A DNA stretch of 64,000 nucleotides from Plasmopara viticola (taxonomy: Eukaryota; Oomycota; Peronosporomycetes; Peronosporales; Peronosporaceae): the NCBI GenBank assembly GCA_001695595.3, contig MBPM02000051.1:496001-560000 (forward strand), given 5' to 3'. Both the position numbers and the translations under genes were made by a program. The notes under the pieces were generated by a model. It was not told where the DNA came from, ran no database searches, and saw only the letters and a list, made by a program, of their open reading frames with translations. Of this stretch, positions 5,006 through 64,000 are shown in pieces (positions within the stretch are counted from its first letter, which is position 1; every line of letters starts with the position of its first letter).

Positions 5006-5029
5006 TTTGACCGACGTCTTGACCCACAA

Positions 5030-7060: not shown

Positions 7061-7333
7061 GACAACTACCCTTTCCGTTTGGACTATTTAAGAAGGATGA
7101 GAGACACAAATCTACAGCTTCATATGAACTGAAAGAAGCATCTCATACTCGCATAATTTACTCGGACCCGAAAACAACTCACATTGACCATTCTTATATC
7201 ATCATGTTCGTTTGAGCTAAAAATTGTCACAAACAACACCGTGAAAAAGGTTATTAATCTTCGCGAATATAGATTGAAAAAAGAGAGCCATAAAGTCTTG
7301 ATCGCGACTTAACAAATAGCATATAGTATAATG
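7061..7333. repeat. Junction and most decayed tRNA-array unit
   Basis: The first ~110 nt show nothing recognisable. From ~7170 short matches to the array spacer appear (for example CATTCTTATATCATCA against CATTCTTATCTCATCAC). This is the eroded edge of the array, in the minus-gene orientation. Confidence 0.5.
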
Positions 7334-7406
7334 TACCCACACTGGAACACTTTCCCGGGTCTCTTGAATGAGAATCAGCTATCCTGACAGCCACGACTAT
7401 ATGGGA
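7334..7406 (-). pseudogene. Decayed tRNA-Glu pseudogene
   Basis: Aligns without gaps to the 73-nt consensus but has ~18 substitutions. The CTC anticodon triplet survives in loop TTCTCAT; the B box and the 3' side of the anticodon stem are destroyed. Confidence 0.8.
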
Positions 7407-7674
7407 AGGCTATGTGGAACAAACGTATAGATATATCAACGCGTACAACCATGGCACACACGCACTTTATTCTTGAAAAATATTCGCATGCGCTGAACGC
7501 GCTCGGCACGGGCACCTCTTTTAGCATCAAACGCGTATGCAAAGATTGTCACAAAAGAACAATCTTACGAATAACAGCAATCAATCAACGCAAGTAAGTC
7601 TCCTTAAGATGCTGCACTCTGATAAAGATGACACATCGACACTTGCAAAAAGAGGGAGCCAGAAGCATTTTGTT

Positions 7675-7744
7675 TTTTCAACACGACTCGAAACCGGGTC
7701 CACCGAGTGAGGCCAGAAATTCTAACCGCTTAATATATTCGCAA
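7675..7744 (-). pseudogene. Heavily decayed tRNA-Glu pseudogene
   Basis: Recognised from ACTCGAAACCGGGT, TTCTAACCGCTTA and the following AAGGCTGA flank. The anticodon arm has an indel and no stem. Ends are approximate. Confidence 0.6.
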
Positions 7745-8048
7745 AGGCTGAGTGGTGAAAGCTTTCAACAACATATAAACACGTACAACCATCGCAGACA
7801 CGCACAATCTGCTTGTACTCAAAAAAGCTTTTATTGGTCATTCTGATCTCATCCCAATCGCTTGCAACGTACGCGCTGGAAACTGGTACCTCTTTTAGCA
7901 CTTAGCGCGAATGCAAACATTTCACAAAAAGATACCGAGGTCGTGAATACAAATTATTAGTTCACGCAAATCAAACTTCCCAAAGAGAGAGACAATAAAT
8001 TGCTAGTTTAAATTGCCGCTTCATAAATAAGCAGCAATAAGTACAATG

Positions 8049-8121
8049 TTCCCACACCGGGACTCGAACCCGGGTCTGCTGGATGAGAGCCAGCTATCCT
8101 AACCGCCTAGACTATATGAGA
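8049..8121 (-). tRNA. tRNA-Glu(CUC)
   Basis: First complete copy from the left edge. Loop CTCTCAT, anticodon CTC, both boxes present. Acceptor starts TCTCATA, giving a U3-G70 wobble. Confidence 0.85.
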
Positions 8122-8418
8122 AGGCTGAAAAAAGGTTTTGATTTATATAAACACGTACAGTCATCGCACACAAGCAACGTCAATTTAGACAAAGAAAAGC
8201 TTCTTTCGATCATTCCTTTATCATCACAATCACTTGCAACGTACGCGCTCGGAGATGGCACCTCTTTTGGTATCCAGCGCGAATGCAAACATTTCACAAA
8301 AGAATTCCGAAGTCGTGAATACAAATTTTAAATTCACGCAATCTAAACTTCCCAAAAAGAGAGTCCATCAATTGATAGGTTATTGCCTCGTCGATATTAA
8401 GCAGCAACGAGTACAATG

Positions 8419-8491
8419 TTCCCACATCGGGACTCAAACCCGGGTCTCCTGGTCGTGAGCCAGCTATTCTAACCGCCTAGACTGAATGGGG
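8419..8491 (-). pseudogene. tRNA-Glu-derived copy with CAC in the anticodon position
   Basis: 73 nt, but loop is CTCACGA, placing CAC (valine) at 34-36. The outer anticodon pair is G-G and the B box is GGTTTGAGTCC. First acceptor base is C. Probably non-functional. Confidence 0.7.
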
Positions 8492-8792
8492 CTCACAAGA
8501 AAAAACCTTTTCGATTTATATATTTAGGTTCAACCACCGCACATACGCACAGTCTACTTGTACGCAGAAAAGCTCTTATTGGTCATTCTTATCTCATCCC
8601 AATCACTTGCAACGTACGCGCTCGAAACTGGCTCCTCTTTTGGCGTCTGGCGCGAAGCAAATATTTTACAAAAAGATACCGAAGTCGTGAATAAAAACTA
8701 TTGATCCATGCAAACCAAGCTTTCTAAAAAAAGAGCGCATGAATTGGTAGTATAAATATCCGCTTCGAAAGTAAGCAGTAATAAGTACAATG

Positions 8793-8865
8793 TTCCCACA
8801 CCGGGACTCGAACCCGGGTCTGCTGGGTGAGAGCCAGCTATCCTAACCGCCTAGACTATATGGGA
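8793..8865 (-). tRNA. tRNA-Glu(CUC)
   Basis: Exact consensus across all arms; the best-preserved gene of the minus arm together with 9918-9990. Confidence 0.92.
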
Positions 8866-9168
8866 AGGCTGACAGGAAAAATCTATTAGATTTATATAAA
8901 CACGTACAACCATCGCACACACGCAACGTCTATTTGGACAAAGAAAAGCTCCTTTCGCTCATTCCTTTATCATCACAATCACTTACAACGTACGCGCTCG
9001 ATTCTGGCACCTATTCAAGCATCCAGCACCAATGCAAACGTTTCACGAAAAGATACCAAAGACCGGGATAAAAACAATCAATCCACGCATATCAAGCTTC
9101 CCAAAAAAAAAACCTTGAATTGGTAGTAAAAATTGCCGCTTCGAAAAAAAGCAGTAACCAGTACAATG

Positions 9169-9241
9169 TTCCCACACTGGGACTCTAGCCCGGGTCTGCT
9201 GGGTGAGAGCCGGCTATCCTAACCGCCTAGACTATATGGAA
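9169..9241 (-). pseudogene. tRNA-Glu copy with broken T loop
   Basis: CTC loop kept, but the B box reads GGCTAGAGTCC, losing the invariant TTC of the T loop. Anticodon stem GCCGG/CCAGC has a C-A mismatch and acceptor starts TTCCATA. Confidence 0.7.
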
Positions 9242-9545
9242 AGGCTGACAGGAAAAAACTTTTAGATTTAAATAAACATGTACAGCCGTCGCACACACGC
9301 AAAGTCTATTTGGACAAAGATAAGCTCCTTTCGGTCAATCTTATCTCACCACAAGCACTTGCAACGTTCGCGGTCGTATCCGGCACCTCTTTAAGCATCT
9401 AGCGCAAATGCATACATTTTACAAAAAGATCCCGAAGTCGTTAATAAAAACTGTTGATCCATGCAAACCAAGCTTTTAAAAAAAAGAGCGCATGAATTGG
9501 TATTATAAATATCCGCTACGAAAATAAGCAGCAATAAGTACAATG

Positions 9546-9615
9546 TTCCCCCACCGGGACTCGAACCCGGGTTTGGGTGAGAGCCAGCCATTCTAACCGC
9601 CAAGACTATATGGGA
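9546..9615 (-). pseudogene. tRNA-Glu copy lacking three anticodon-stem bases
   Basis: 70 nt. The CTCTCAC loop is present but the 3' strand of its stem has lost three bases (CCAAA), so only part of the stem can pair. Boxes intact. Confidence 0.72.
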
Positions 9616-9917
9616 AGGCTGACAGGAAAACACTTTTAGATTTATATAAACACGTACAACTATCGCACACACGCAACGTCTATTTCGACAAAGAAAAGCT
9701 CTTTTCGGTCAATCTTATCTCATCACAAGCACTATCAACGTATGCGCTCGAATCTGGCACCTCTTTTAGCATCTAGCGCGTACGCGAACATTCTACAAAA
9801 AGATACCGAAGTCGTGAGAAAAAACTATAGATCGACGCAGTCCAAGCTCCCTAAAAAAGAGCGCATGAGTTGGTAGTATAAATATTTGCTTCGAAACTAA
9901 GCAGCAATTAGTACAAG

Positions 9918-9990
9918 TTCCCACACCGGGACTCGAACCCGGGTCTGCTGGGTGAGAGCCAGCTATCCTAACCGCCTAGACCATATGGGA
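9918..9990 (-). tRNA. tRNA-Glu(CUC)
   Basis: Consensus except A9-G10 region reads ATGGTCT (T-to-G change next to the acceptor). Anticodon arm, T arm and boxes are intact. Confidence 0.9.
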
Positions 9991-10292
9991 AGGCTGCTAG
10001 GAAAAAACTTTTAGATTTATATAATTACGTACAACCATCGCACACACGCAAAGTCTATTTGGACAAAGAAAAGCTCCTTTCTGTCAATCTTATCTCATCA
10101 CAAGCGCTTGCAACGTACGCGCTCGAATCTGGCACCTCGTTAAGCATCTAGTGCGAATGCAAACATTTAACAAAAAGATACCGAAGTCGTGAGTAACAAC
10201 TATAGATCAACGCAGACCAAGCTTCCTAAAAAAAACGCATGAGTTGGTAGTATAAATATCCGCTTCGAAACTAAGCAGCAATAAGTACAATG

Positions 10293-10362
10293 TTCCCACA
10301 CCGGGACTCGAACCCGGGTCTGGGTGGGAGCCAGCTATCTTAACCGCCTAGACTATATGGGA
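10293..10362 (-). pseudogene. tRNA-Glu-derived copy with CCC in the anticodon position
   Basis: 70 nt. Loop CTCCCAC places CCC (glycine) at 34-36, but three bases after the stem are gone and the outer stem pair is lost. Last gene before the inversion. Confidence 0.7.
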
Positions 10363-10570
10363 AGGCTGACAGGAAAAATCTTTTAGATTTATATAAACAC
10401 GTACAACCGTTGCACACACGCAACGTCTATTTGGACAAAGAAAAGCTTCTTTCTGTCAATCTTATCTCATCACAAGCACTTGCAACGTATGCGCTTGAAT
10501 TTGGCACCTCTTTAAGCATCTAGTGCGAATGCAAACATTTAACAAAAAGATACCGAAGTCGTGAGTAACA

Positions 10571-10600
10571 ACACGCAAAGTCCAAATAGACTTTGCGTGT
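10571..10600. repeat. Perfect 12-bp inverted repeat at the inversion point
   Basis: ACACGCAAAGTC (10571-10582) and its exact reverse complement (10589-10600) enclose CAAATA. The left arm belongs to the minus-type spacer and the right arm to the plus-type spacer, so this is the breakpoint where the array changes direction. Confidence 0.93.
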
Positions 10601-10620
10601 GTGCGATGGTTGTACGTGTT

Positions 10621-10628
10621 TATATAAA
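10621..10628 (+). promoter_or_regulatory. TATA-like box (representative)
   Basis: TATATAAA at -33 to -26 of the gene at 10654. Most units have it at this distance, as TATATAAA, TATATCAA or, in B-type units, TTTTTATAAA. Such upstream TATA elements aid Pol III start selection in plants and some yeasts. A T5-7 run follows at about -18 to -12. Confidence 0.65.
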
Positions 10629-10653
10629 TCCTAAAGTTTTTTCCTGTTAGCCT

Positions 10654-10726
10654 TCCCATATAGTCTAGGCGGTTAGGATAGCTGGCTCTCACCCAGCAGA
10701 CCCGGGTTCGAGTCCCGGTGTGGGAA
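10654..10726 (+). tRNA. tRNA-Glu(CUC)
   Basis: Exact 73-nt consensus; first plus-strand gene after the inversion. Confidence 0.93.
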
Positions 10727-10740
10727 CATTGTACTTATTA

Positions 10741-10759
10741 CTGCTTACTTTCGAAGCGG
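10741..10759 (+). other. Hairpin in the 3' trailer (representative)
   Basis: CTGCTT and AAGCGG can pair (six pairs, one wobble) around a 7-nt loop, ~14 nt after the tRNA. The pairing arms are kept in most units although loop bases vary (AGTTTCG, ACTTTCG; B type ACTTTTGA with one pair fewer). Confidence 0.5.
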
Positions 10760-10786
10760 ATATTTATACTACCAACTCATGCGCTC

Positions 10787-10792
10787 TTTTTT
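10787..10792 (+). terminator. Pol III T6 terminator (representative)
   Basis: First run of four or more T after the gene at 10654, beginning 61 nt past the discriminator. The same CTCTTTTTTAG occurs at this distance in nearly every unit. Nothing closer has more than three T. Confidence 0.65.
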
Positions 10793-11046
10793 AGGGAGCT
10801 TGGTCTGCGTTGGAGCTTGGTCTGCTTGAATCTATAGTTTTTACTCACGACTTCGGTATCTTTTTGTAAAATGTTTGCATTCGCGCTAGATGCTTAAAGA
10901 GGTGCCAGATACTACCGCGTACGTTGCAAAGGCTTGTGATGAGAAAAGATTGATCGAAAGAAGCTTTTCTTTGTTGAAAAAGACTTTGCGTGTGTGCGAT
11001 GGTTGTACGTGTTTATATCAATCTAAAAGATTTTTCCTGTCAGCCT

Positions 11047-11090
11047 TCCCATATAGTCTAGGCGGTTAGGATAGCTGGCTCTCACCCAGC
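11047..11090 (+). pseudogene. Truncated tRNA-Glu 5' half
   Basis: 44 nt identical to the consensus up to CCAGC, then fused directly to spacer TATAGTTTTAAGTC. Variable, T and 3' acceptor arms and the B box are absent. First of six with this breakpoint. Confidence 0.9.
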
Positions 11091-11304
11091 TATAGTTTTA
11101 AGTCACGACTTCGGTATCTTTTTGTAGAATGTTTGCATTCGCGCTAGATGCTTTAAGAGGTGCCAGATTCGAGCGCATACGTTGCAAGTGCTTGTGATGA
11201 GATAAGATTGACCGAAAGGAGCTTTTCTTCGTCCAAATTCACGTTGCTTGTGTGCGATGGCTGTACGTGTTTATATAAATCTAAAAGTTTTTTCTTGTCA
11301 GCCT

Positions 11305-11377
11305 TCCCATATAGTTTAGGCGGTTAGGATAGCTGGCTCTCTCCCAGCAGACCCGGGTTCGAGTCCCGGTGTGGGAA
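11305..11377 (+). tRNA. tRNA-Glu(CUC)
   Basis: A box changed to TAGTTTAGGCGG; loop CTCTCTC. CTC anticodon kept. Confidence 0.85.
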
Positions 11378-11698
11378 CATTGTACTCATTGCTGCTTTCG
11401 TTTAAAGCGGATATTTATACTACCAACTCATGCGCTCTTTTTTAGGGAGCTTGGTCTGCGTGGGAGCTTGGTTTGCGTGGATCTATAGTTGTTACTCACG
11501 ACTTCGGTATCTTTTTGTAAAATGTTTGCATTCGTGTTAGATGCTTAAAGAGGTGCCAGATACGACCGCATACGTTGCAAGTGCTTGTGATGAGATAAGA
11601 TTGACAGAAAGAAGTTTTTCTTTGTCCAAATAGACTTTGCGTGTGTGCGAAGGTTGCACGGGTTTATATCAATCTAAAAGTTTATTTCCTGTCAGCCT

Positions 11699-11769
11699 TC
11701 CCATATTGTCTAGGAGGTTAGGATAGCTGGCCCACCTAGTAGACCCGGGTTCGAGTCCCGGTGTGGGAA
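11699..11769 (+). pseudogene. tRNA-Glu-like, 5-nt anticodon loop
   Basis: First short-loop copy: GCTGG-CCCAC-CTAGT instead of GCTGG-CTCTCAC-CCAGC. Also A9 to T and a G-for-C change in the D loop. Confidence 0.85.
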
Positions 11770-12071
11770 CATTGTACTTATTGCTGCTACTTTCGAAGCG
11801 GATATTCATACTACCAACTCATGCGCTCTTTTTTAGAGAGCTTGGTCTGCTTGGATCTATAGTTTTTACTCACGACTTCGGTATCTTTTTGTAAAATGTT
11901 TGCATTCGCGCTAGATGCTTAACGAGGTGCCAGATACGACCGCATACGTTGCAAGTGCTTGTGATGAGATAAGATTGACAGAAAGAAGCTTTTCTTTGTC
12001 CAAAAAGACTTTGCGTGTGTGCGATGGTTGCACGTGTTTATATCAATCTAAAAGTTTTTTCCTGTCAGCCT

Positions 12072-12142
12072 TCCCATATAGTCTAGGCGGTTAGGATAGC
12101 TGGCCCACCCAGTAGACCCGGGTTCGAGTCCCGGTGTGGGAA
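12072..12142 (+). pseudogene. tRNA-Glu-like, 5-nt anticodon loop
   Basis: 71 nt, loop CCCAC with CCAGT on the 3' stem strand; this is the standard short-loop form. Boxes intact. Flank TATATCAA. Confidence 0.88.
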
Positions 12143-12444
12143 CATTGTACTTATTGCTGCTACTTTCGAAGCGGATATTCATACCACCGACTCATGCGCT
12201 CTTTTTTAGGGAGCTTGGTCTGCTTGGATCTATAGTTGTTACTCACGACTTCGGTATCTTTTTGTAAAATGTTTGCATTCGCGCTAGATGCTTAAAGAGG
12301 TGCCAGATACGACCGCGTACGTTGCAAGTGCTTGTGATGAGATAAGATTGACAGAAAGAAGCTTTTCTTTGTCCAAATAGACTTTGCGTGTGTGCGATGG
12401 TTGTACGTGTTTATATAAATCTAAAAGTTGTTTCCTGTTAGCAT

Positions 12445-12517
12445 TCCCATATAGTCTAGGCGGTTAGGATAGCTGGCTCTCACCCAGCAGACCCGGGTTC
12501 GAGTCCCGGTGTGGGAA
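12445..12517 (+). tRNA. tRNA-Glu(CUC)
   Basis: Consensus gene. 5' flank CATTCCC instead of CTTCCC; 3' flank lost two bases (GGGAACTTGTAC). Confidence 0.92.
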
Positions 12518-12819
12518 CTTGTACTTGATGCTGCTTACTTTCGAAGCGGATATTTATACTACCAACTCATGCGTTCTTTTTTAGGGAACTTGGTTTGCGT
12601 GGATCTATAGTTTTTAGTCACGACTTCGGAATCTTTTTGTAAAATGTTTGCATTCGCGCTAGATGCTTAAAGAGGTGCCAGATTCGAGCGCATACGTTGC
12701 AAGTGCTTGTGATGAGATAAGAATGACCGAAAGAAGCTTTTCTTTGTCCAAAAAGACGTTGCGTGTGTGCAATGGTTGTACGTGTTTATATAAATCTAAA
12801 AGTTTTTTCTTGTCAGCCT

Positions 12820-12892
12820 TCCCATATAGTCTAGGCGCTTAGGGTAGCTGGCTCTCACCCAGCAGACCCGGGTTCGAGTCACGGTGTGGGAA
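12820..12892 (+). tRNA. tRNA-Glu(CUC), T stem weakened
   Basis: T-stem 3' strand ACGG instead of CCGG and D arm CTTAGGGT. CTC loop intact. Confidence 0.8.
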
Positions 12893-13212
12893 CATTGTAC
12901 TTATTGCTGCTTAGTTTCGAAGCGGATATTTATACTACCAACTCATGCGCTCTTTTTTAGGGAGCTTGGTCTTCGTAGGAGCTTGGTTTGCGTGGATCTA
13001 TAGTTGTTACTCACGACTTCGGTATCTTTTTGTAAAATGTTTGCATTCGCGCTAGATGCTTAAAGAGGTGCCAGATACGACCGCGTACGTTGCAAGTGCT
13101 TGTGATGAGATAAGATTGACAGAAAGAAGCTTTTCTTTGTCCGAATAGACTTTGCGCGTGTGCGATGGTTGTACGTGTTTTTATAAATCTAAAAGTTTTT
13201 TTCTGTCAGCCT

Positions 13213-13283
13213 TCCCATATAGTCTAGGCGATTAGGATAGCTGGCCCACCCAGTAGACCCGGGTTCGAGTCCCGGTGTGGGAA
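13213..13283 (+). pseudogene. tRNA-Glu-like, 5-nt anticodon loop
   Basis: Short-loop form with GCGATTAGG in the D loop. Flank TTTTTATAAA. Confidence 0.87.
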
Positions 13284-13603
13284 CATTGTACTTATTGCTG
13301 CTTAGTTTCGAAGCGGATATTTATACTACCAACTCATGCGCTCATTTTTAGGGAGCTTGGTCTGCGTGGGAGCTTGGTCTGCTTGGATCTATAGTTGTTA
13401 CTCACGACTTCGGTATCTTTTTGTAAAATGTTTGCATTCGCGCTAGATGCTTAACGAGGTGCCAGATACGACCGCGTACGTTGCAAGTGCTTGTGATGAG
13501 ATAAGATTGACAGAAAGAAGCTTTTCTTTGTCCAAATAGACTTTCCGTGTGTGCGATGGTTGTACGTGTTTATATCAATCTAAAAGTTTTTTCCTGTCAG
13601 CCT

Positions 13604-13674
13604 TCCCATATAGTCTAGGCGGTTAGGATAGCTGGCCCACCCAGTAGACCCGGGTTCGAGTCCCGGTGTGGGAA
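13604..13674 (+). pseudogene. tRNA-Glu-like, 5-nt anticodon loop
   Basis: Standard short-loop form; flank TATATCAA. Confidence 0.88.
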
Positions 13675-13680
13675 CATTGT

Positions 13681-14339
13681 ACTTATTGCTGCTACTTTTG
13701 AAGCGGATATTCATACTACCAACTCATGCGCTCTTTTTTAGAGAGCTTGGTCTGCTTGGATCTATAGTTTTTACTCATGACTTCGGTATCTTTTTGTAAA
13801 ATGTTTGCATTCGCGCTAGATGCTTAACGAGGTGCCAGATTTGAGCGCATACGTTGCGAGTGCTTGTGATGAGATAAGATTGACAGAAAAGAGCTTTTCT
13901 TTGTCCAAATAGACTTTGCGTGTGTGTGATGGTTGAACGTGTTTTTATAAATCTAAAAGTTTTTTTCTGTCAGCCTTCCCATATAGTCTAGGAGGTTAGG
14001 ATAGCTGGCTCTCACCCAGCAGACCCGGGTTCGAGTCCCGGTGTGGGAACTTGTACTTAATGCTGCTTACTTTCGAAGCGGATATTTATACTACCAACTC
14101 ATGCGTTCTTTTTTAGGGAACTTGGTTTGCGTGGATCTATAGTTTTTAGTCACGACTTCGGAATCTTTTTGTAAAATGTTTGCATTCGCGCTAGATGCTT
14201 AAAGAGGTGCCAGATTCGAGCGCATACGTTGCAAGTGCTTGTGATGAGATAAGAATGACCGAAAGAAGCTTTTCTTTGTCCAAAAAGACATTGCGTGTGT
14301 GCAATGGTTGTACGTGTTTATATAAATCTAAAAGTTTTT
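13681..14339 (+). repeat. Exact ~659-bp duplication, copy 1
   Basis: Identical, by line-by-line reading, to 14821-15479 (offset 1140), including one whole tRNA and its spacers. The identity ends at a T-run length difference. Confidence 0.88.
13977..14049 (+). tRNA. tRNA-Glu(CUC)
   Basis: CTC loop intact but with a B-type 5' flank (GAACGTGTTTTTATAAA), normally linked to short-loop copies. D loop AGGAGG. Confidence 0.88.
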
Positions 14340-14350
14340 CTTGTCAGCCT

Positions 14351-14423
14351 TCCCATATAGTCTAGGCGCTTAGGGTAGCTGGCTCTCACCCAGCAGACCC
14401 GGGTTCGAGTCCCGGTTTGGGAA
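14351..14423 (+). tRNA. tRNA-Glu(CUC)
   Basis: D arm GCGCTTAGGGT and acceptor 3' strand TTTGGGA (U6-U67 mismatch). Confidence 0.82.
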
Positions 14424-14743
14424 CATTGTACTTATTGCTGCTTAGTTTCGAAGCGGATATTTATACTACCAACTCATGCGCTCTTTTTTAGGGAGCTTGG
14501 TCTGCGTGGGAGCTTGGTCTGCTTGGATCTATAGTTGTTACTCACGACTTCGGTATCTTTTTGTAAAATGTTTGCATTCGCGCTAGATGCTTAACGAGGT
14601 GCCAGATACGACCGCGTACGTTGCAAGTGCTTGTGATGAGATAAGATTGACAGAAAGAAGCTTTTCTTTGTCCAAATAGACTTTGCGTGTGTGTGATGGT
14701 TGAACGTGTTTTTATAAATCTAAAAGTTTTTTCCTGTCAGCCT

Positions 14744-14814
14744 TCCCATATAGTCTAGGCGGTTAGGATAGCTGGCCCACCCAGTAGACCCGGGTTCGAG
14801 TCCCGGTGTGGGAA
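14744..14814 (+). pseudogene. tRNA-Glu-like, 5-nt anticodon loop
   Basis: Standard short-loop form with B-type flank. Confidence 0.88.
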
Positions 14815-14820
14815 CATTGT

Positions 14821-15479
14821 ACTTATTGCTGCTACTTTTGAAGCGGATATTCATACTACCAACTCATGCGCTCTTTTTTAGAGAGCTTGGTCTGCTTGGA
14901 TCTATAGTTTTTACTCATGACTTCGGTATCTTTTTGTAAAATGTTTGCATTCGCGCTAGATGCTTAACGAGGTGCCAGATTTGAGCGCATACGTTGCGAG
15001 TGCTTGTGATGAGATAAGATTGACAGAAAAGAGCTTTTCTTTGTCCAAATAGACTTTGCGTGTGTGTGATGGTTGAACGTGTTTTTATAAATCTAAAAGT
15101 TTTTTTCTGTCAGCCTTCCCATATAGTCTAGGAGGTTAGGATAGCTGGCTCTCACCCAGCAGACCCGGGTTCGAGTCCCGGTGTGGGAACTTGTACTTAA
15201 TGCTGCTTACTTTCGAAGCGGATATTTATACTACCAACTCATGCGTTCTTTTTTAGGGAACTTGGTTTGCGTGGATCTATAGTTTTTAGTCACGACTTCG
15301 GAATCTTTTTGTAAAATGTTTGCATTCGCGCTAGATGCTTAAAGAGGTGCCAGATTCGAGCGCATACGTTGCAAGTGCTTGTGATGAGATAAGAATGACC
15401 GAAAGAAGCTTTTCTTTGTCCAAAAAGACATTGCGTGTGTGCAATGGTTGTACGTGTTTATATAAATCTAAAAGTTTTT
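14821..15479 (+). repeat. Exact ~659-bp duplication, copy 2
   Basis: Second copy of 13681-14339; the pair marks a very recent three-unit duplication. Confidence 0.88.
15117..15189 (+). tRNA. tRNA-Glu(CUC)
   Basis: Duplicate of 13977-14049, same AGGAGG D loop and B-type flank. Confidence 0.88.
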
Positions 15480-15491
15480 TCTTGTCAGCCT

Positions 15492-15564
15492 TCCCATATA
15501 GTCTAGGCGCTTAGGGTAGCTGGCTCTCACCCAGCAGACCCGGGTTCGAGTCCCGGTTTGGGAA
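15492..15564 (+). tRNA. tRNA-Glu(CUC)
   Basis: Duplicate of 14351-14423 with the same acceptor mismatch. Confidence 0.82.
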
Positions 15565-15884
15565 CATTGTACTTATTGCTGCTTAGTTTCGAAGCGGATA
15601 TTTATACTACCAACTCATGCGCTCTTTTTTAGGGAGCTTGGTCTTCGTGGGAGCTTGGTTTGCGTGGATCTATAGTTTTTACTCATGACTTCGGTATCTT
15701 TTTGTAAAATGTTTGCATTCGCGCTAGATGCTTAACGAGGTGCCAGATTTGAGCGCATACGTTGCAAGTGCTTGTGATGAGATAAGATTGACAGAAAAGA
15801 GCTTTTCTTTGTCCAAATAGACTTTGCGTGTGTGTGATGGTTGAACGTGTTTTTATAAATCTAAAAGTTTTTTTCTGTCAGCCT

Positions 15885-15955
15885 TCCCATATAGTCTAGG
15901 AGGTTAGGATAGCTGGCCCACCCAGTAGACCCGGGTTCGAGTCCCGGTTTGGGAA
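15885..15955 (+). pseudogene. tRNA-Glu-like, 5-nt anticodon loop
   Basis: Short-loop form with AGGAGG D loop and TTTGGGA acceptor strand. First gene of the five-gene block. Confidence 0.87.
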
Positions 15956-16275
15956 CATTGTACTTATTGCTGCTTAGTTTCGAAGCGGATATTTATACTA
16001 CCAACTCATGCGCTCTTTTTTAGGGAGCTTGGTCTGCGTGGGAGCTTGGTCTGCTTGGATCTATAGTTGTTACTCACGACTTCGGTATCTTTTTGTAAAA
16101 TGTTTACATTCGCGGTAGATGCTTAAAGAGGTGCCAGATACGACCGCATACGTTGCAAGTGCTTGTGATGAGATAAGATTGACAGAAAGGAGCTTTTCTT
16201 TGTCCAAATAGACTTTGCGTGTGTGCGATGGTTGTACGTGTTTATATAAATCTAATAGATTTTTCCTGTCAGCCT

Positions 16276-16348
16276 TCCCATATAGTCTACGCGGTTAGGA
16301 TAGCTGACTCTCACCCAGCAGACCCGGGTTCGAGTCCCGGTGTGGGAA
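16276..16348 (+). tRNA. tRNA-Glu(CUC), stem mismatch
   Basis: Anticodon stem GCTGA/CCAGC has an A-C pair next to the loop; A box TAGTCTACGCGG. CTC kept. Confidence 0.8.
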
Positions 16349-16651
16349 CATTGTACTAATTGCTGCTTAGTTTCGAAGCAAATATTTATACTACCAACTC
16401 ATGCGCTCTTTTTTAGGGAGCTTGGTCTGCGTGGATCTATAGTTGTTACTCACGATTTCGGTATCTTTTTGTAAAATGTTTGCATTCGCGCTAGATGCTT
16501 AAAGAGGTGCCAGATACGACCGCATACGTTGCAAGTGCTTGTGATGAGATAAGATTGATCGAAAGAAGCTTTTCTTTGTTGAAAAAGACTTTGCGTGTGT
16601 GCGATGGTTGTACGTGTTTATATAAATCTGAAAGATTTTTCCTGTCAGCCT

Positions 16652-54610: not shown

Positions 54611-54683
54611 TCCCATATAGTCTAGGCGGTTAGGATAGCTGGCTCTCACCCAGCAGACCCGGGTTCGAGTCCCGGTGTGGGAA
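54611..54683 (+). tRNA. tRNA-Glu(CUC)
   Basis: Exact consensus. Its trailer T-run is cut to T5 (CTCGTTTTTAGC). Confidence 0.93.
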
Positions 54684-55003
54684 CATTGTACTTATTACTG
54701 CTTACTTTCGAAGCGGATATTTATACTACCAACTCATGCGCTCGTTTTTAGCGAACTTGGTCTGCGTGGGATCTTGGTCTGCGTGGATCTATAGTTTTTA
54801 GTCACGACTTCGGTATCTTTTTGTAAAATTCTTGCTTTCGCGCTAGATGCTTAAAGAGGTGCCAGATACGACCGCGTACGTTGCAAAGGCTTGTGATGAG
54901 ATAAAATGGATCGAAAGAAGCTTTTCTTTGTCGAAAAAGACTTTGCGTGTGTACGATGGTTGTACGTGTTTATATAAATTTAAAAGATTTTTCCTGTCAG
55001 CCT

Positions 55004-55076
55004 TCCCATATAGTCTAGGCGGTTAGGATAGCTGGCTCTCACCCAGCAGACCCGGGTTCGAGTCCCGGTGTGGGAA
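55004..55076 (+). tRNA. tRNA-Glu(CUC)
   Basis: Exact consensus; flank TATATAAATTTAAAAG. Confidence 0.93.
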
Positions 55077-55387
55077 CATTGTACTTATTACTGCTTACTT
55101 TCGAAGCGGATATTTATACTTCCAACTCATGCGCTCTTTTTTAGGGAGCTTGGTCTGCGTGGGAGCTTGGATCTATAGTTGTTACTCACGACTTCGGTAT
55201 CTTTTTGTAAAATGTTTGCATTCGCACTAGATGCTTAAAGAGGTGCCAGATACGACCGCGTACGTTGCAAGTGCTTGTGATGAGATAAGATTGACCGAGA
55301 GAAGCTTTTCTTTGTCCAAATAGACGTTGCGTGTGTGTGATGGTTGTACGTGTTTATATAAATCTAATAGATTTTTCCTGTCAGCCT

Positions 55388-55460
55388 TCCCATATAGTCT
55401 AGGCGGTTAGGATAGCTGGCTCTCACCCAGCAGACCCGGGTTCGAGTCATGGTGTGGGAA
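55388..55460 (+). tRNA. tRNA-Glu(CUC), T stem broken
   Basis: T-stem 3' strand CATGG instead of CCCGG (two mismatches), the same lesion as at 61977. Confidence 0.78.
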
Positions 55461-55776
55461 CATTGTACTTATTACTGCTTACTTTCGAAGCGGATATTTA
55501 TACTACCAACTCATGCGCTCTTTTTTAGGGAGCTTGGTCTGCGTGGGAGCTTGGTCTGCTTGGATCTATAGTTTTTACTCACGACTTCGGTATCTTTTTG
55601 TAAAATGTTTGCATTCGCGCTAGATGCTTAAAGAGGTGCCAGATACGACTGCGTACGTTGCAAAGGCTTGTGATGAGATAAGATTGACGAAAGAAGCTTT
55701 TCTTTGTCCAAAAGACTTTGCGTGTGTGCGATGGTTGTACGTGTTTATATAAATCTAAAGTTTTTCCTGTCAGCCT

Positions 55777-55848
55777 TCCATATAGTCTAGGCGGTTAGGA
55801 TAGCTGGCTCTCACCCAGCAGACCCGGGTTCGAGTCCCGGTGTGGGAA
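55777..55848 (+). tRNA. tRNA-Glu(CUC), one acceptor base missing
   Basis: 72 nt: CCC reduced to CC at the 5' end. Confidence 0.83.
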
Positions 55849-56167
55849 CATTGTACTTATTGCTGCTTACTTTCGAAGCGGATATTTATACTACCAACTC
55901 ATGCGCTCTTTTTTAGCGAACTTGGTCTGCGTGGGATCTTGGTCTGCGTGGATCTATAGTTTTTAGTCACGACTTCGGTATCTTTTTGTAAAATGTTTGC
56001 ATTCGCGCTAGATGCTTAAAGAGGTGCCAGATACGACCGCATACGTTGCAAGTGCTTGTGATGAGATAAGAATGACCGAAAGAAGCTTTTCTTTGTCCAA
56101 ATAGACTTTGCGTGTGTGTGATGGTTGTACGTGTTTATATAAATCTAAAGTTTTTTCCTGTCAGCCT

Positions 56168-56240
56168 TCCCATATAGTCTAGGCGGTTAGGATAGCTGGC
56201 TCTCACCCAGCAGACCCGGGTTCGAGTCCCGGTGTGGGAA
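56168..56240 (+). tRNA. tRNA-Glu(CUC)
   Basis: Exact consensus. Confidence 0.93.
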
Positions 56241-56540
56241 CATTGTACTTATTACTGCTTACTTTCGAAGCGGATATTTATACTACCAACTCATGCGCTC
56301 TTTTTTAGGGAGCTTGGTCTGCGTGGATCTATAGTTGTTACTCACGACTTCGGTATCTTTTTGTAAAATGTTTGCATTCGCGCTAGATGCTTAAAGAGGT
56401 GCCAGATACGACCGCATACGTTGCAAGTGCTTGTGATGAGATAAGATTGATCGAAAGAAGCTTTTCTTTGTCAAAAGACTTTGCGTGTGTGCGATGGTTG
56501 TACGTGTTTATATAAATTAAAAGATTTTTCCTGTCAGCCT

Positions 56541-56613
56541 TCCTATATAGTCTAGGCGGTTAGGATAGCTGGCTCTCACCCAGCAGACCCGGGTTCGAGT
56601 CCCGGTGTGGGAA
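56541..56613 (+). tRNA. tRNA-Glu(CUC)
   Basis: Acceptor TCCTATA (U4-G69 wobble); first of five such copies to 61192. Confidence 0.9.
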
Positions 56614-56932
56614 CATTGTACTTATTGCTGCTTACTTTCGAAGCGGATATTTATACTACCAACTCATGCGCTCTTTTTTAGCGAACTTGGTCTGCGTGGG
56701 ATCTTGGTCTGCGTGGATCTATAGTTTTTGCTCACGACTTCGGTATCTTTTTGTAAAATGTTTGCTTTCGCGCTAGATGCTTAAAGAGGTGCCAGATACG
56801 ACCGCATACGTTGCAAGTGCTTGTGATGAGATAAGAATGACCGAAAGAAGCATTTCTTTGTCCAAATAGACTTTGCGTGTGTGTGATGGTTGTACGTGTT
56901 CATATAAATCTAAAAGTTTTTCCTGTCAGCCT

Positions 56933-57005
56933 TCCCATATAGTCTAGGCGGTTAGGATAGCTGGCTCTCACCCAGCAGACCCGGGTTCGAGTCCCGGTGT
57001 GGGAA
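56933..57005 (+). tRNA. tRNA-Glu(CUC)
   Basis: Exact consensus; flank CATATAAA weakens the TATA-like box. Confidence 0.93.
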
Positions 57006-57307
57006 CATTGTACTTATTACTGCTTACTTTCGAAGCGGATATTTATACTACCAACTCATGCGCTCTTTTTTAGGGAGCTTGGTCTGCGTGGATCTATAGT
57101 TGTTACTCACGACTTCGGTATCTTTTTGTAAAATGTTTGCATTCGCGCTAGATGCTTAAAGAGGTGCCAGATACGACCGCATACGTTGCAAGTGCTTGTG
57201 ATGAGATAAGATTGATCGAAAGAAGCTTTTCTTTGTCCAAAAGACTTTGCGTGTGTGCGATGGTTGTACGTGTTTATATAAATCTAAAAGATTTTTCCTG
57301 TCAGCCT

Positions 57308-57380
57308 TCCCATATAGTCTAGGCGGTTAGGATAGCTGGCTCTCACCCAGCAGACCCGGGTTCGAGTCCCGGTGTGGGAA
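57308..57380 (+). tRNA. tRNA-Glu(CUC)
   Basis: Exact consensus. Confidence 0.93.
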
Positions 57381-57699
57381 CATTGTACTTATTGCTGCTT
57401 ACTTTCGAAGCGGATATTTATACTACCAACTCATGCGCTCTTTTTTAGCGAACTTGGTCTGCGTGGGATCTTGGTCTGCGTGGATCTATAGTTTTTGCTC
57501 ACGACTTCGGTATCTTTTTGTAAAATGTTTGCTTTCGCGCTAGATGCTTAAAGAGGTGCCAGATACGACCGCATACGTTGCAAGTGCTTGTGATGAGATA
57601 AGAATGACCGAAAGAAGCTTTTCTTTGTCCAAATAGACTTTGCGTGTGTGTGATGGTTGTACGTGTTTATATAAATCTAAAAGTTTTTCCTGTCAGCCT

Positions 57700-57772
57700 T
57701 CCCATATAGTCTAGGCGGTTAGGATAGCTGGCTCTCACCCAGCAGACCCGGGTTCGAGTCCCGGTGTGGGAA
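57700..57772 (+). tRNA. tRNA-Glu(CUC)
   Basis: Exact consensus. Confidence 0.93.
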
Positions 57773-58073
57773 CATTGTACTTATTACTGCTTACTTTCGA
57801 AGCGGATATTTATACTACCAACTCATGCGCTCTTTTTTAGGGAGCTTGGTCTGCGTGGATCTATAGTTTTACTCACGACTTCGGTATCTTTTTGTAAAAT
57901 GTTTGCATTCGCGCTAGATGCTTAAAGAGGTGCCAGATACGACCGCATACGTTGCAAGTGCTTGTGATGAGATAAGATTGATCGAAAGAAGCTTTTCTTT
58001 GTCCAAAAGACTTTGCGTGTGTGCGATGGTTGTACGTGTTTATATAAATCTAAAAGATTTTTCCTGTCAGCCT

Positions 58074-58146
58074 TCCTATATAGTCTAGGCGGTTAGGATA
58101 GCTGGCTCTCACCCAGCAGACCCGGGTTCGAGTCCCGGTGTGGGAA
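58074..58146 (+). tRNA. tRNA-Glu(CUC)
   Basis: Acceptor TCCTATA variant. Confidence 0.9.
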
Positions 58147-58466
58147 CATTGTACTTATTGCTGCTTACTTTCGAAGCGGATATTTATACTACCAACTCAT
58201 GCGCTCTTTTTTAGCGAACTTGGTCTGCGTGGGATCTTGGTCAGCGTGGATCTATAGTTTTTGCTCACGACTTCGGTATCTTTTTGTAAAATGTTTGCAT
58301 TCGCGCTAGATGCTTAAAGAGGTGCCAGATACGACCGCGTACGTTGCAAAGGCTTGTGATGAGATAAGATTGATCGAAAGAAGCTTTTCTTTGTCGAAAA
58401 AGACTTTGCGTGTGTGCGATGGTTGTACGTGTTTATATAAATTTAAAAGATTTTTCCTGTCAGCCT

Positions 58467-58538
58467 TCCATATAGTCTAGGCGGTTAGGATAGCTGGCTC
58501 TCACCCAGCAGACCCGGGTTCGAGTCCCGGTGTGGGAA
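58467..58538 (+). tRNA. tRNA-Glu(CUC), one acceptor base missing
   Basis: 72 nt, CCC reduced to CC; sits where neighbours have TCCTATA, so the true base may be a miscalled T. Confidence 0.83.
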
Positions 58539-58858
58539 CATTGTACTTATTGCTGCTTACTTTCGAAGCAGATATTTATACTACCAACTCATGCGCTCTT
58601 TTTTAGCGAACTTGGTCTGCGTGGGATCTTGGTCTGCGTGGATCTATAGTTTTTAGTCACGACTTCGGTATCTTTTTGTAAAATTCTTGCTTTCGCGCTA
58701 GATGCTTAAAGAGGTGCCAGATACGACCGCATACGTTGCAAGTGCTTGTGATGAGATAAGAATGACCGAAAGAAGCTTTTCTTTGTCCAAATAGACTTTG
58801 CGTGTGTGCGATGGTTGTACGTGTTTATATAAATCTAAAAGTTTTTTCCTGTCAGCCT

Positions 58859-58931
58859 TCCCATATAGTCTAGGCGGTTAGGATAGCTGGCTCTCACCCA
58901 GCAGACCCGGGTTCGAGTCCCGGTGTGGGAA
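58859..58931 (+). tRNA. tRNA-Glu(CUC)
   Basis: Exact consensus. Confidence 0.93.
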
Positions 58932-59249
58932 CATTGTACTTATTACTGCTTACTTTCGAAGCGGATATTTATACTACCAACTCATGCGCTCTTTTTTAGG
59001 GAGCTTGGTCTGCGTGGGATCTTGGTCAGCGTGGATCTATAGTTTTTGCTCACGACTTCGGTATCTTTTTGTAAAATGTTTGCATTCGCGCTAGATGCTT
59101 AAAGAGGTGCCAGATACGACCGCGTACGTTGCAAGGCTGTGATGAGATAAGATTGATCGAAAGAAGCTTTTCTTTGTCGAAAAAGACTTTGCGTGTGTGC
59201 GATGGTTGTACGTGTTTATATAAATTTAAAAGATTTTTCCTGTCAGCCT

Positions 59250-59322
59250 TCCTATATAGTCTAGGCGGTTAGGATAGCTGGCTCTCACCCAGCAGACCCG
59301 GGTTCGAGTCCCGGTGTGGGAA
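59250..59322 (+). tRNA. tRNA-Glu(CUC)
   Basis: Acceptor TCCTATA variant. Confidence 0.9.
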
Positions 59323-59642
59323 CATTGTACTTATTGCTGCTTACTTTCGAAGCAGATATTTATACTACCAACTCATGCGCTCTTTTTTAGCGAACTTGGT
59401 CTGCGTGGGATCTTGGTCTGCGTGGATCTATAGTTTTTAGTCACGACTTCGGTATCTTTTTGTAAAATGTTTGCTTTCGCGCTAGATGCTTAAAGAGGTG
59501 CCAGATACGACCGCATACGTTGCAAGTGCTTGTGATGAGATAAGAATGACCGAAAGAAGCTTTTCTTTGTCCAAATAGACGTTGCGTGTGTGCGATGGTT
59601 GTACGTGTTTATATAAATCTAAAAGTTTTTTCCTGTCAGCCT

Positions 59643-59715
59643 TCCCATATAGTCTAGGCGGTTAGGATAGCTGGCTCTCACCCAGCAGACCCGGGTTCGA
59701 GTCCCGGTGTGGGAA
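59643..59715 (+). tRNA. tRNA-Glu(CUC)
   Basis: Exact consensus. Confidence 0.93.
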
Positions 59716-60031
59716 CATTGTACTTATTACTGCTTACTTTCGAAGCGGATATTTATACTACCAACTCATGCGCTCTTTTTTAGGGAGCTTGGTCTGCGTG
59801 GGAGCTTGGTCTGCTTGGATCTATAGTTTTTACTCACGACTTCGGTATCTTTTTGTAAAATGTTTGCATTCGCGCTAGATGCTTAAAGAGGTGCCAGATA
59901 CGACCGCGTACGTTGCAAGGCTTGTGATGAGATAAATGATCGAAAGAAGCTTTTCTTTGTCCAAAAGACTTTGCGTGTGTGCGATGGTTGTACGTGTTTA
60001 TATAAATCTAAAAGATTTTTCCTGTCAGCCT

Positions 60032-60103
60032 TCCATATAGTCTAGGCGGTTAGGATAGCTGGCTCTCACCCAGCAGACCCGGGTTCGAGTCCCGGTGTGG
60101 GAA
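60032..60103 (+). tRNA. tRNA-Glu(CUC), one acceptor base missing
   Basis: 72 nt, CCC reduced to CC. Confidence 0.83.
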
Positions 60104-60422
60104 CATTGTACTTATTGCTGCTTACTTTCGAAGCGGATATTTATACTACCAACTCATGCGCTCTTTTTTAGCGAACTTGGTCTGCGTGGGATCTTGGTCT
60201 GCGTGGATCTATAGTTTTTGCTCACGACTTCGGTATCTTTTTGTAAAATGTTTGCATTCGCGCTAGATGCTTAAAGAGGTGCCAGATACGACCGCGTACG
60301 TTGCAAAGGCTTGTGATGAGATAAGATTGATCGAAAGAAGCTTTTCTTTGTCGAAAAAGACTTTGCGTGTGTGCGATGGTTGTACGTGTTTATATAAATT
60401 AAAAGATTTTTCCTGTCAGCCT

Positions 60423-60495
60423 TCCTATATAGTCTAGGCGGTTAGGATAGCTGGCTCTCACCCAGCAGACCCGGGTTCGAGTCCCGGTGTGGGAA
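60423..60495 (+). tRNA. tRNA-Glu(CUC)
   Basis: Acceptor TCCTATA variant; flank TATATAAATTAAAAG. Confidence 0.9.
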
Positions 60496-60798
60496 CATTG
60501 TACTTATTGCTGCTTACTTTCGAAGCGGATATTTATACTACCAACTCATGCGCTCTTTTTTAGCGAACTTGGTCTGCGTGGATCTATAGTTTTTAGTCAC
60601 GACTTCGGTATCTTTTTGTAAAATGTTTGCTTTCGCGCTAGATGCTTAAAGAGGTGCCAGATACGACCGCATACGTTGCAAGTGCTTGTGATGAGATAAG
60701 AATGACCAAAAGAAGCTTTTTTTTGTCCAAATAGACTTTGCGTGTGTGTGATGGTTGTACGTGTTTATATAAATCTAATAGATTTTTCCTGTCAGCCT

Positions 60799-60871
60799 TC
60801 CCATATAGTCTAGGCGGTTAGGATAGCTGGCTCTCACCCAGCAGACCCGGGTTCGAGTCCCGGTGTGGGAA
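60799..60871 (+). tRNA. tRNA-Glu(CUC)
   Basis: Exact consensus; upstream spacer carries a T-rich change (GCTTTTTTTTGTCC). Confidence 0.93.
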
Positions 60872-61191
60872 CATTGTACTAGTTACTGCTTACTTTCGAA
60901 GCGGATATTTATACTACCAACTCATGCGCTCTTTTTTAGCGAACTTGGTCTGCGTGGGATCTTGGTCTGCGTGGATCTATAGTTTTTAGTCACGACTTCG
61001 GTATCTTTTTGTAAAATGTTTGCATTCGCGCTAGATGCTTAAAGAGGTGCCAGATACGACCGCGTACGTTGCGAAGGCTTGTGAGGAGATAAGATTGATC
61101 GAAAGAAGCTTTTCTTTGTCGAAAAAGACTTTGCGTGTGTGCGATGGTTGTACGTGTTTATATAAATTTAAAAGATTTTTCCTGTCAGCCT

Positions 61192-61264
61192 TCCTATATA
61201 GTCTAGGCGGTTAGGATAGCTGGCTCTCACCCAGCAGACCCGGGTTCGAGTCTCGGTGTGGGAA
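61192..61264 (+). tRNA. tRNA-Glu(CUC)
   Basis: Acceptor TCCTATA and T-stem TCTCGG (one wobble). Confidence 0.88.
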
Positions 61265-61584
61265 CATTGTACTTATTGCTGCTTACTTTCGAAGCGGATA
61301 TTTATACTACCAACTCATGCGCTCTTTTTTAGCGAACTTGGTCTGCGTGGGATCTTGGTCTGCGTGGATCTATAGTTTTTAGTCACGACTTCGGTATCTT
61401 TTTGTAAAATGTTTGCTTTCGCGCTAGATGCTTAAAGAGGTGCCAGATACGACCGCATACGTTGCAAGTGCTTGTGATGAGATAAGAATGACCGAAAGAA
61501 GCTTTTCTTTGTCCAAATAGACTTTGCGTGTGTGTGATGGTTGTACGTGTTTATATAAATCTAATAGATTTTTCCTGTCAGCCT

Positions 61585-61657
61585 TCCCATATAGTCTAGG
61601 CGGTTAGGATAGCTGGCTCTCACCCAGCAGACCCGGGTTCGAGTCCCGGTGTGGGAA
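61585..61657 (+). tRNA. tRNA-Glu(CUC)
   Basis: Exact consensus. Confidence 0.93.
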
Positions 61658-61976
61658 CATTGTACTTATTACTGCTTACTTTCGAAGCGGATATTTATAC
61701 TACCAACTCATGCGCTCTTTTTTAGCGAACTTGGTCTGCGTGGGATCTTGGTCTGCGTGGATCTATAGTTTTTACTCACGACTTCGGTATCTTTTTGTAA
61801 AATGTTTGCTTTCGCGCTAGATGCTTAAAGAGGTGCCAGATACGACCGCATACGTTGCAAGTGCTTGTGATGAGATAAGAATGACCGAAAGAAGCTTTTC
61901 TTTGTCCAAATAGACTTTGCGTGTGTGTGTGGTTGTACGTGTTTATATAAATCTAATAGATTTTTCCTGTCAGCCT

Positions 61977-62049
61977 TCCCATATAGTCTAGGCGGTTAGG
62001 ATAGCTGGCTCTCACCCAGCAGACCCGGGTTCGAGTCATGGTGTGGGAA
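61977..62049 (+). tRNA. tRNA-Glu(CUC), T stem broken
   Basis: CATGG T-stem strand, identical lesion to 55388. Confidence 0.78.
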
Positions 62050-62367
62050 CATTGTACTTATTACTGCTTACTTTCGAAGCGGATATTTATACTACCAACT
62101 CATGCGCTCTTTTTAGGGAGCTTGGTCTGCGTGGGAGCTTGGTCTGCTTGGATCTATAGTTTTTACTCACGACTTCGGTATCTTTTTGTAAAATGTTTGC
62201 ATTCGCGCTAGATGCTTAAAGAGGTGCTAGATACGACCGCGTACGTTGCAAAGGCTTGTGATGAGATAAGATTGATCGAAAGAAGCTTTTCTTTGTCCAA
62301 ATAGACGTTGCGTGTGTGCGATGGTTGTACGTGTTTATATAAATCTAAACGTTTTTCCTGTCAGCCT

Positions 62368-62440
62368 TCCCATATAGTCTAGGCGGTTAGGATAGCTGGC
62401 TCTCACCCAGCAGACCCGGGTTCGAGTCCCGGTGTGGGAA
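62368..62440 (+). tRNA. tRNA-Glu(CUC)
   Basis: Exact consensus. Confidence 0.93.
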
Positions 62441-62760
62441 CATTGTACTTATTACTGCTTACTTTCGAAGCGGATATTTATACTACCAACTCATGCGCTC
62501 TTTTTTAGGGAGCTTGGTCTGCGTGGGAGCTTGGTCTGCTTGGATCTATAGTTTTTACTTACGACTTCGGTATCTTTTTGTAAAATGTTTGCATTTGCGC
62601 TAGATGCTTAAAGAGGTGCCAGATACGACCGCATACGTTGCAAGTGCTTGTGGTGAGATAAGATTGATCGAAAGAAGCTTTTCTTTGTCCAAATAGACGT
62701 TGCGTGTGTGCGATGGTTGTACGTGTTTATATAAATCTAAAAGTTTTTTCCTGTCAGCCT

Positions 62761-62833
62761 TCCCATATAGTCTAGGCGGTTAGGATAGCTGGCTCTCACC
62801 CAGCAGACCCGGGTTCGAGTCCCGGTGTGGGAA
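62761..62833 (+). tRNA. tRNA-Glu(CUC)
   Basis: Exact consensus. Confidence 0.93.
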
Positions 62834-63136
62834 CATTGTACTTATTACTGCTTACTTTCGAAGCGGATATTTATACTACCAACTCATGCGCTCTTTTCTA
62901 GGGATCTTGGTCTGCTTGGATCTGTAGTTTTAAGTCACGACTTCGGTATCTTTTTGTAAAATGTTTGCATTCGCGCTAGATGCTTTAAGAGGTGCCAGAT
63001 TCGAGCGCATACGTTGCAAGTGCTTGTGATGAGATAAGAATGACCGAAAGAAGCTTTTCTTTGTCCAAATAGACTTTGCGTGTGTGTGATGGTTGTACGT
63101 GTTTATATAAATCTAAAAGTTTTTTTCTGTCAGCCT

Positions 63137-63209
63137 TTCCATGTAGTCTAGGCGGTTAGGATAGCTGGCTCTCACCCAGCAGACCCGGGTTCGAGTCCCG
63201 GTGTGGGAC
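63137..63209 (+). tRNA. tRNA-Glu(CUC), discriminator changed
   Basis: Acceptor TTCCATG; 3' end GGGACATT lacks one A, so the discriminator becomes C or the gene ends one base early. Confidence 0.82.
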
Positions 63210-63275
63210 ATTGTACTTGTTACTGCTTACTTTCGAAGCGGATATTTATACTACCAACTCATGCGCTCTTTTTTT

Positions 63276-63326
63276 GGGAGCTTGGTCTGCGTGGGAGCTT
63301 GGTCTGCGTGGGAGCTTGGTCTGCGT
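63276..63326 (+). repeat. 17-bp minisatellite, three copies
   Basis: GGGAGCTTGGTCTGCGT repeated three times without change. Other units have one or two copies; copy number explains the ~373, ~391 and (here) 409 nt spacings. Confidence 0.92.
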
Positions 63327-63545
63327 GGTTCTATAGTTGTTACTCACGACTTCGGTATCTTTTTGTAAAATGTTTGTATTCGCGCTAGATGCTTAAAGAG
63401 GTGCCAGATACGACCGCATACGTTGCAAGTGCTTGTGATGAAATAAGAATGACCGAAAGAAGCTTTTCTTTGTTCAAATAGACTTTGCGTGTGTGTGATG
63501 GTTGTACGTGTTTATATAAATCTAATAGATTTTTCCTGTCAGCCT

Positions 63546-63618
63546 TCCCATATAGTCTAGGCGGTTAGGATAGCTGGCTCTCACCCAGCACACCCGGGTT
63601 CGAGTCCCGGTGTGGGAA
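63546..63618 (+). tRNA. tRNA-Glu(CUC)
   Basis: Variable loop ACAC instead of AGAC; otherwise consensus. Confidence 0.9.
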
Positions 63619-63921
63619 CATTGTACTTATTACTGCTTACTTTCGAAGCGGATATTTATACTACCAACTCATGCGCTCTTTTTTAGGGAGCTTGATCTGC
63701 TTGGATCTATAGTTTTAAGTCACGACTTCGGTATCTTTTTGTAAAATGTTTGCATCCGCGCCAGATGCATTAAGAGGTGCCAGATTCGAGCGCATACGTT
63801 GCAAGTGCTTGTGATGAGATAAGAATGACCTTAAGAAGCTTTTCTTTGTCCAAATAGACTTTGCGTGTGTGTGATGGTTGTACGTGTTTATATAAATTTA
63901 AAAGTTTTTTCCTGTCAGCCT

Positions 63922-63994
63922 TTCCACATAGTCTAGGCGGTTAGAATAGCTGGCTCTCACCCAGCAGACCCGGGTTCGAGTCCCGGTGTGGGAC
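63922..63994 (+). tRNA. tRNA-Glu(CUC), discriminator changed
   Basis: Last gene in the window. Acceptor TTCCACA, D stem TTAGAAT, and the same GGGACATT end as 63137. The array continues past the window. Confidence 0.82.
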
Positions 63995-64000
63995 ATTGTA

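Follow-up and report, generated by a model that had tools for sequence, protein, structure and literature searches.

The stretch of DNA considered here, called the window below, comprises 64,000 nucleotides of the oomycete Plasmopara viticola (GenBank assembly GCA_001695595.3, contig MBPM02000051.1; C51:496001-560000 in the notation used here), and from position 7336 to its right edge it is occupied by a tandem array in which each unit carries a single gene derived from tRNA-Glu(CUC). Positions given without a contig are those of the window. With a 73-nt tRNA-Glu query, nhmmer, which defines the loci throughout, finds 151 of them in the window (142 on the plus and nine on the minus strand) and 221 from 7336 to the contig end at C51:591150, the latter figure covering the assembled part of the array; these and all further tRNA locus totals are raw search counts without a shuffle control. 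ARAGORN makes 137 calls in the window (78 Glu-CTC, 57 Trp-CCA, one Ala and one Leu), and the Rfam tRNA model gives 138 matches above its gathering score, with E-values from 3.9e-11 to 0.0014. Tandem Repeats Finder (TRF) reports a period of 391 bp in 136.8 copies at 11462-64000 and a period of 372 bp at 7773-10572, and the spacing of the units is mostly ~370-395 bp, with peaks at 368-378 and 383-397 bp. A sequence-only reading of this DNA had proposed 151 loci, a tandemly repeated unit of ~380 bp, no end of the array in the window and a satellite-like organization of one tRNA lineage, all of which agrees with these results.

A spacing of 257 bp also occurs six times, and six of the tRNAs are truncated to 44 nt. 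Many spacers contain a 17-bp direct repeat, usually in two copies (for example at 11445-11480; TRF), and its presence or absence may account for the unit lengths of ~372 and ~390 bp. To the left, degenerate remnants of the unit are detected from ~7060 onward with a hidden Markov model (HMM) of the unit (E 4.2e-5), and a run of this model over C51:476001-504500 yields no match farther left than ~7050 in the window (E<=10). To the right, the assembly probably broke at the end of C51, because the contig ends within the array.

The anatomy of the unit is directly visible. Folding of one intact tRNA yields a cloverleaf, and together with the CUC anticodon and the A and B boxes this gives the sequence features of a functional tRNA-Glu gene. 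There are 135 exact B boxes in the window, and in 52 of the 151 loci an exact B box comes with an anticodon arm and acceptor ends that are both intact. Signals around the gene were surveyed in the 186 units of C51 with an intact 3' end (14 of 200 units were dropped): 162 of them carry an upstream TATA-like element, and in 174 the first run of at least five T lies 57-61 nt downstream. Both are candidate signals for RNA polymerase III (Pol III), which would use the former upstream of the gene and the latter as its terminator.

The loci fall into classes that differ in the anticodon arm. Full-length copies with an intact CUC arm account for 69 of the 151, and 36 loci are identical to the 73-nt query, while 62 carry a common 2-nt deletion in the loop, linked to a C-to-T change in the arm; seven measure less than 60 nt, and in 13 the anticodon arm is altered in other ways. 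The loop-deleted allele is observed to have spread regionally (see the table below), and the genome contains its exact arm 57 times, in each case on C51. The 57 loci that ARAGORN calls Trp(CCA), and the Leu(CAA) call at 24937, are such loop-deleted units. An anticodon loop has seven nucleotides with U at position 33; read as CCA, the loop-deleted unit has C at this position. The label of tRNA-Trp was rejected in favor of tRNA-Glu units with a shared 2-nt deletion. One loop-deleted example that was folded adopts no cloverleaf but a different shape of lower energy. Judged from these features, the approximately sixty loop-deleted copies should not work as glutamate tRNAs. The view that the array is made only of tRNA-Glu(CUC) thus stands for the lineage, which is that of one isoacceptor, but not for the individual copies, and a need for this tRNA in large amounts, the supply of which had also been suggested, appears doubtful with 62 of 151 loci lacking the normal glutamate anticodon loop. 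Elsewhere, ARAGORN makes a single Gln(CUG) call in the array on C51 (L012:5235) and a single Lys(CUU) call in the tRNA-Glu array of contig C118 (C118:56707), perhaps anticodon point variants.

Inversions and local duplications are likewise seen directly. The orientation of the array flips at ~10.57 kb (~10572) and, beyond the window but on its scale, at ~80.8 kb, and alignments across both flips are 73.5-94.9% identical. Because the arms are thus not mirror copies, neither a palindrome nor a hairpin-read artefact was accepted as the explanation of either flip. Within the plus arm, for each of 23 tested pieces of 1.5 kb, the best match other than to itself, with a length of 1 kb or more required, shows 92.3-99.7% identity and is offset by 0.76-28.8 kb, as expected from segmental duplication and conversion.

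Searches of the whole genome (92,937,831 bases in 358 contigs) place this array in a wider family. Copies of the intact CUC arm number 364, 121 of them on C51, and because the first 100 of the 364 that were listed, apparently in contig order, begin on C51, contigs C1-C50 probably hold none. Spacer marker 1 matches C51 and C279 (20 of 20 matches), and spacer marker 2 matches C51, C118 and C204 (among the 100 of 168 matches listed); these matches are spaced in a tandem-like manner on few contigs, and none among them is dispersed. The corresponding UUC arm occurs 242 times, and the 100 occurrences listed are all on contig C1 (2,847,657 bases). There, other sequence takes up at most about the first 1 kb, followed by an array of tRNA-Glu(UUC) genes that is still present at 60 kb and is no longer found in five samples at 90-181 kb. 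The possibility that the C1 array forms the far end of the CUC array was rejected, as its genes are UUC. TTTAGGG is a telomere motif, and two tandem copies of it, on either strand, were absent from a 95-kb stretch of C51 and from C1:1-10000; a link of the array with a telomere was discarded for this reason. After a single pattern match, the UUC gene had seemed to be present in hardly more than one copy, a view refuted by the 242 exact arms; the pattern contained TTTTCAC where the gene reads CTTTCAC. One alternative Glu-CUC body pattern had no match. A genome search in DNA mode is an undercount (14 matches), and the Rfam genome search, with 63 of 13,680 candidates scored, yields no genome-wide tRNA total.

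The two isoacceptors meet on C118, where the last plus-strand CUC gene, at 61,271, is followed at 61,590 by a UUC gene on the minus strand (C118:61271-61590), and the two arrays are thus observed to abut. Their consensus tRNAs differ at one of 73 bases, the wobble base, which separates decoding of GAG from that of GAA, whereas the spacers align weakly, with a score of 204.5 against 147.6 +/- 8.9 (maximum 171.5) for 200 shuffles. From this alignment, the CUC and UUC spacers are judged homologous but diverged; a BLAST hint that they are unrelated was overturned by the global alignment and by HMM matches. The arrays share almost the same tRNA, flanked by diverged spacers. Other tRNAs also form arrays of their own in this genome: in ARAGORN samples, Lys-UUU arrays were found on C27 and C140 (spacing 517-587 bp) and a Thr-UGU array on C16 (spacing 312-317 bp), and the Lys-UUU pattern also occurs on C147 and C233 (among the 100 of 130 matches listed). 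All 21 sampled Lys genes lack a run of at least five T within 200 bp downstream.

Features of the window and its left flank (window coordinates)
Feature	Position	Strand	Remarks
tRNA-Glu tandem array	7336..64000	both	151 loci; runs past the window to the contig end
Plus-strand array	10654..64000	+	142 loci
Region of the 62 loop-deleted loci	11699..42373	+	41 of 42 loci at 26.7-42.4 kb are of this type
tRNA-Glu(CUC) block	42693..63994	+	intact anticodon arm in 55 of 56 loci
Typical intact tRNA-Glu(CUC) gene	43447..43519	+	cloverleaf fold; Rfam tRNA
TATA-like element TATATAAA	43414..43421	+	33 bp upstream of the tRNA at 43447..43519; putative function
T6 run, candidate Pol III terminator	43580..43585	+	60 nt downstream of this tRNA; putative function
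Left segment of the array	7336..10362	-	nine loci, seven of them either truncated or with an altered anticodon arm
Head-to-head inversion junction	10560..10600	.	short inverted repeat; 1.5-kb arms align at 84-93% identity
Degenerate LTR-retrotransposon-like remnant	1170..6993	-	flank, outside the array

The flanking remnant resembles a long terminal repeat (LTR) retrotransposon in its repeats at 1207-1436 and 6768-6993, which are 72% identical; one of six pieces has a weak match to the Tf2-1 SH3 domain, below the Pfam cut-off, and the other five are without a match.

The array is most likely a genuine nuclear tRNA-Glu(CUC) gene family that was amplified in tandem and homogenized. A single gene and the sequences flanking it, together the unit of ~380 bp, would have been multiplied, presumably by unequal exchange and not by another amplification route, and unequal exchange together with gene conversion would since have kept the copies similar. 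The CUC array and its sister UUC array would descend from one ancestral unit. Intact copies would serve as templates of Pol III and provide tRNA-Glu, the loop-deleted copies would be passengers unable to decode glutamate, and the copy number would lie above need and drift; judging from how far the loop-deleted allele has spread, the cell may not depend closely on the number of copies. In support of this reading, substitutions among the 95 intact units on the plus strand beyond 42 kb affect 5 of 49 tRNA sites vs. 39 of 110 sites in the spacer (p 0.00095, Fisher test), in a test that excludes sites near indels, a filter which removed many sites. When indels are counted, diversity in this block is 0.0226 in the tRNA and 0.0953 in the spacer.

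Several observations weigh against this interpretation, most of them from the same comparison of tRNA and spacer. Variable sites amount to 1 of 51 vs. 8 of 163 in 41 loop-deleted units (p 0.69), to 1 of 40 vs. 28 of 237 in 18 minus-strand units (p 0.09) and to 21 of 50 vs. 82 of 138 in all 200 units (p 0.046), a weak difference, and 20 UUC units are uninformative, with 0 of 73 and 0 of 120 sites variable. Counting indels, diversity in the loop-deleted block is 0.0133 in the tRNA and 0.0722 in the spacer, the same contrast as in the intact block, so that decoding copies are not told apart from the rest in this way. Windowed diversity tests are modest overall (6 to 20 of 388-393 windows lower), including the circular-window test of the intact block (17 of 393 lower). 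Low tRNA diversity alone is thus no proof of selection for decoding, and gene conversion confined to the tRNA could be an alternative way of keeping the isoacceptors alike. Furthermore, folding does not set the intact tRNA apart from shuffled sequences, 47 of 200 of which do as well, the copy number rests on one assembly, and individual locations cover the 121 CUC arms on C51 but not the other 243 of the 364.

Alternatively, the unit could be an element resembling a short interspersed nuclear element (SINE), a retroelement headed by a tRNA that serves as promoter only, as has been proposed for comparable clusters in Peronospora effusa (Skiadas et al., 2024; PMC11540230). A tRNA head with a body of ~310 bp in hundreds of copies would suit such an element, but the spacer-marker matches listed (20 of 20 and 100 of 168) lie on few contigs in tandem-like spacing, and there is no evident reason why a SINE should keep 72 of 73 tRNA bases and differ in the wobble base alone; in P. 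effusa, too, each family is described as location-specific and likely unable to mobilize (PMC11540230). Because isoacceptor arrays one base apart abut each other, we favor genuine tRNA genes, and a SINE-like origin appears unlikely. That the array is instead a structural or selfish satellite, maintained by chromatin organization through TFIIIC or by recombination drive and irrespective of its tRNA output, is very unlikely, although the selfish satellite considered by the sequence-only reading is partly compatible with the observations. The loss of the normal glutamate anticodon loop in 62 of 151 loci would fit it, as would a B box diversity of 0.0000 in the loop-deleted block and a tRNA diversity there as low as in the intact block, and nuclear organization has been raised as a question for such arrays (Matson et al., 2022; PMC9584435). 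However, by substitutions the tRNA of the intact block varies less than its spacer, the sister UUC array keeps the same tRNA body, and the uniform B box of the loop-deleted block is not special, because the spacer of that block is homogeneous as well.

An assembly artefact, in which collapsed, expanded or hairpin-read sequence would inflate the array, could be invoked because the array stops at a contig end, related units lie on several contigs and published tRNA counts vary among assemblies of one species (PMC9584435). Against this, the inverted arms are not mirrored, variant types are ordered by region, tRNA counts of Phytophthora infestans were confirmed by Illumina read depth (Matson et al., 2022; PMC9584435), and the P. 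viticola assembly derives from PacBio reads at a mean depth of 185x (PMC6660063); an artefact is therefore highly improbable. It is also conceivable, but very doubtful, that selection maintains the loop-deleted block, which would then not be debris, as a non-decoding Pol III element that acts on chromatin through TFIIIC or gives rise to tRNA fragments, and that this block is expanding within an array which otherwise continues to provide an essential tRNA. If the reading as a homogenized gene family is right, an essential tRNA family evolves here like a satellite, and the 62 of 151 loci without a normal glutamate anticodon loop suggest that homogenization can outrun dosage selection and spread non-decoding copies.

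Among the titles and abstract openings listed by literature searches there was no publication on this particular array, a search for tandem tRNA arrays as satellite DNA gave no paper, and the main text of the P. viticola genome paper uses "tRNA" once and "tandem" never (PMC6660063). The kind of array is nevertheless already published, and the suggestion that it is a new kind of object had to be abandoned: monomeric tRNA arrays are known in P. infestans (PMC9584435) and P. effusa (PMC11540230), and the array shares with them the oomycete host and the same tRNA once per unit. In Entamoeba, almost all tRNA genes are also tandemly arrayed, but their units hold up to five tRNA genes, with microsatellite-like intergenic repeats in E. 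histolytica (PMC2652664), and the difference from Entamoeba that had been pointed out is thus upheld by the single tRNA per unit. The tRNA Ser/Tyr cluster of Arabidopsis is similar in its tandemly repeated, redundant tRNA genes and differs in its two isotypes and in being silent in most tissues (PMC12308677).

Closer parallels come from the oomycetes. The arrays of P. infestans likewise consist of one tRNA per unit of a few hundred bp in hundreds of copies with grouped variants, and about two-thirds of the families lie on a single chromosome; the single-chromosome arrays comprise nearly identical copies, in contrast to the loop-deleted fraction found here (PMC9584435). That study predicted 7,519 tRNA genes, and its supplementary comparison takes in the P. 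viticola assembly GCA_001974925.1 (Matson et al., 2022; PMC9584435). In P. effusa, 33-39 tRNA clusters of ten to 970 genes each were described per isolate, and these resemble the present array in being made of a single tRNA, in a tRNA more conserved than the rest of the unit, in subgroups of recent expansion and in internal inversions (Skiadas et al., 2024; PMC11540230). In that paper the unit is read as SINE-like, and the main text contains none of the terms "glutam", "isoaccept", "anticodon" and "pol III"; here, the comparison of the CUC and UUC arrays favors true tRNA genes, and abutting arrays that differ by one tRNA base between diverged spacers offer a test between the two readings of oomycete clusters.

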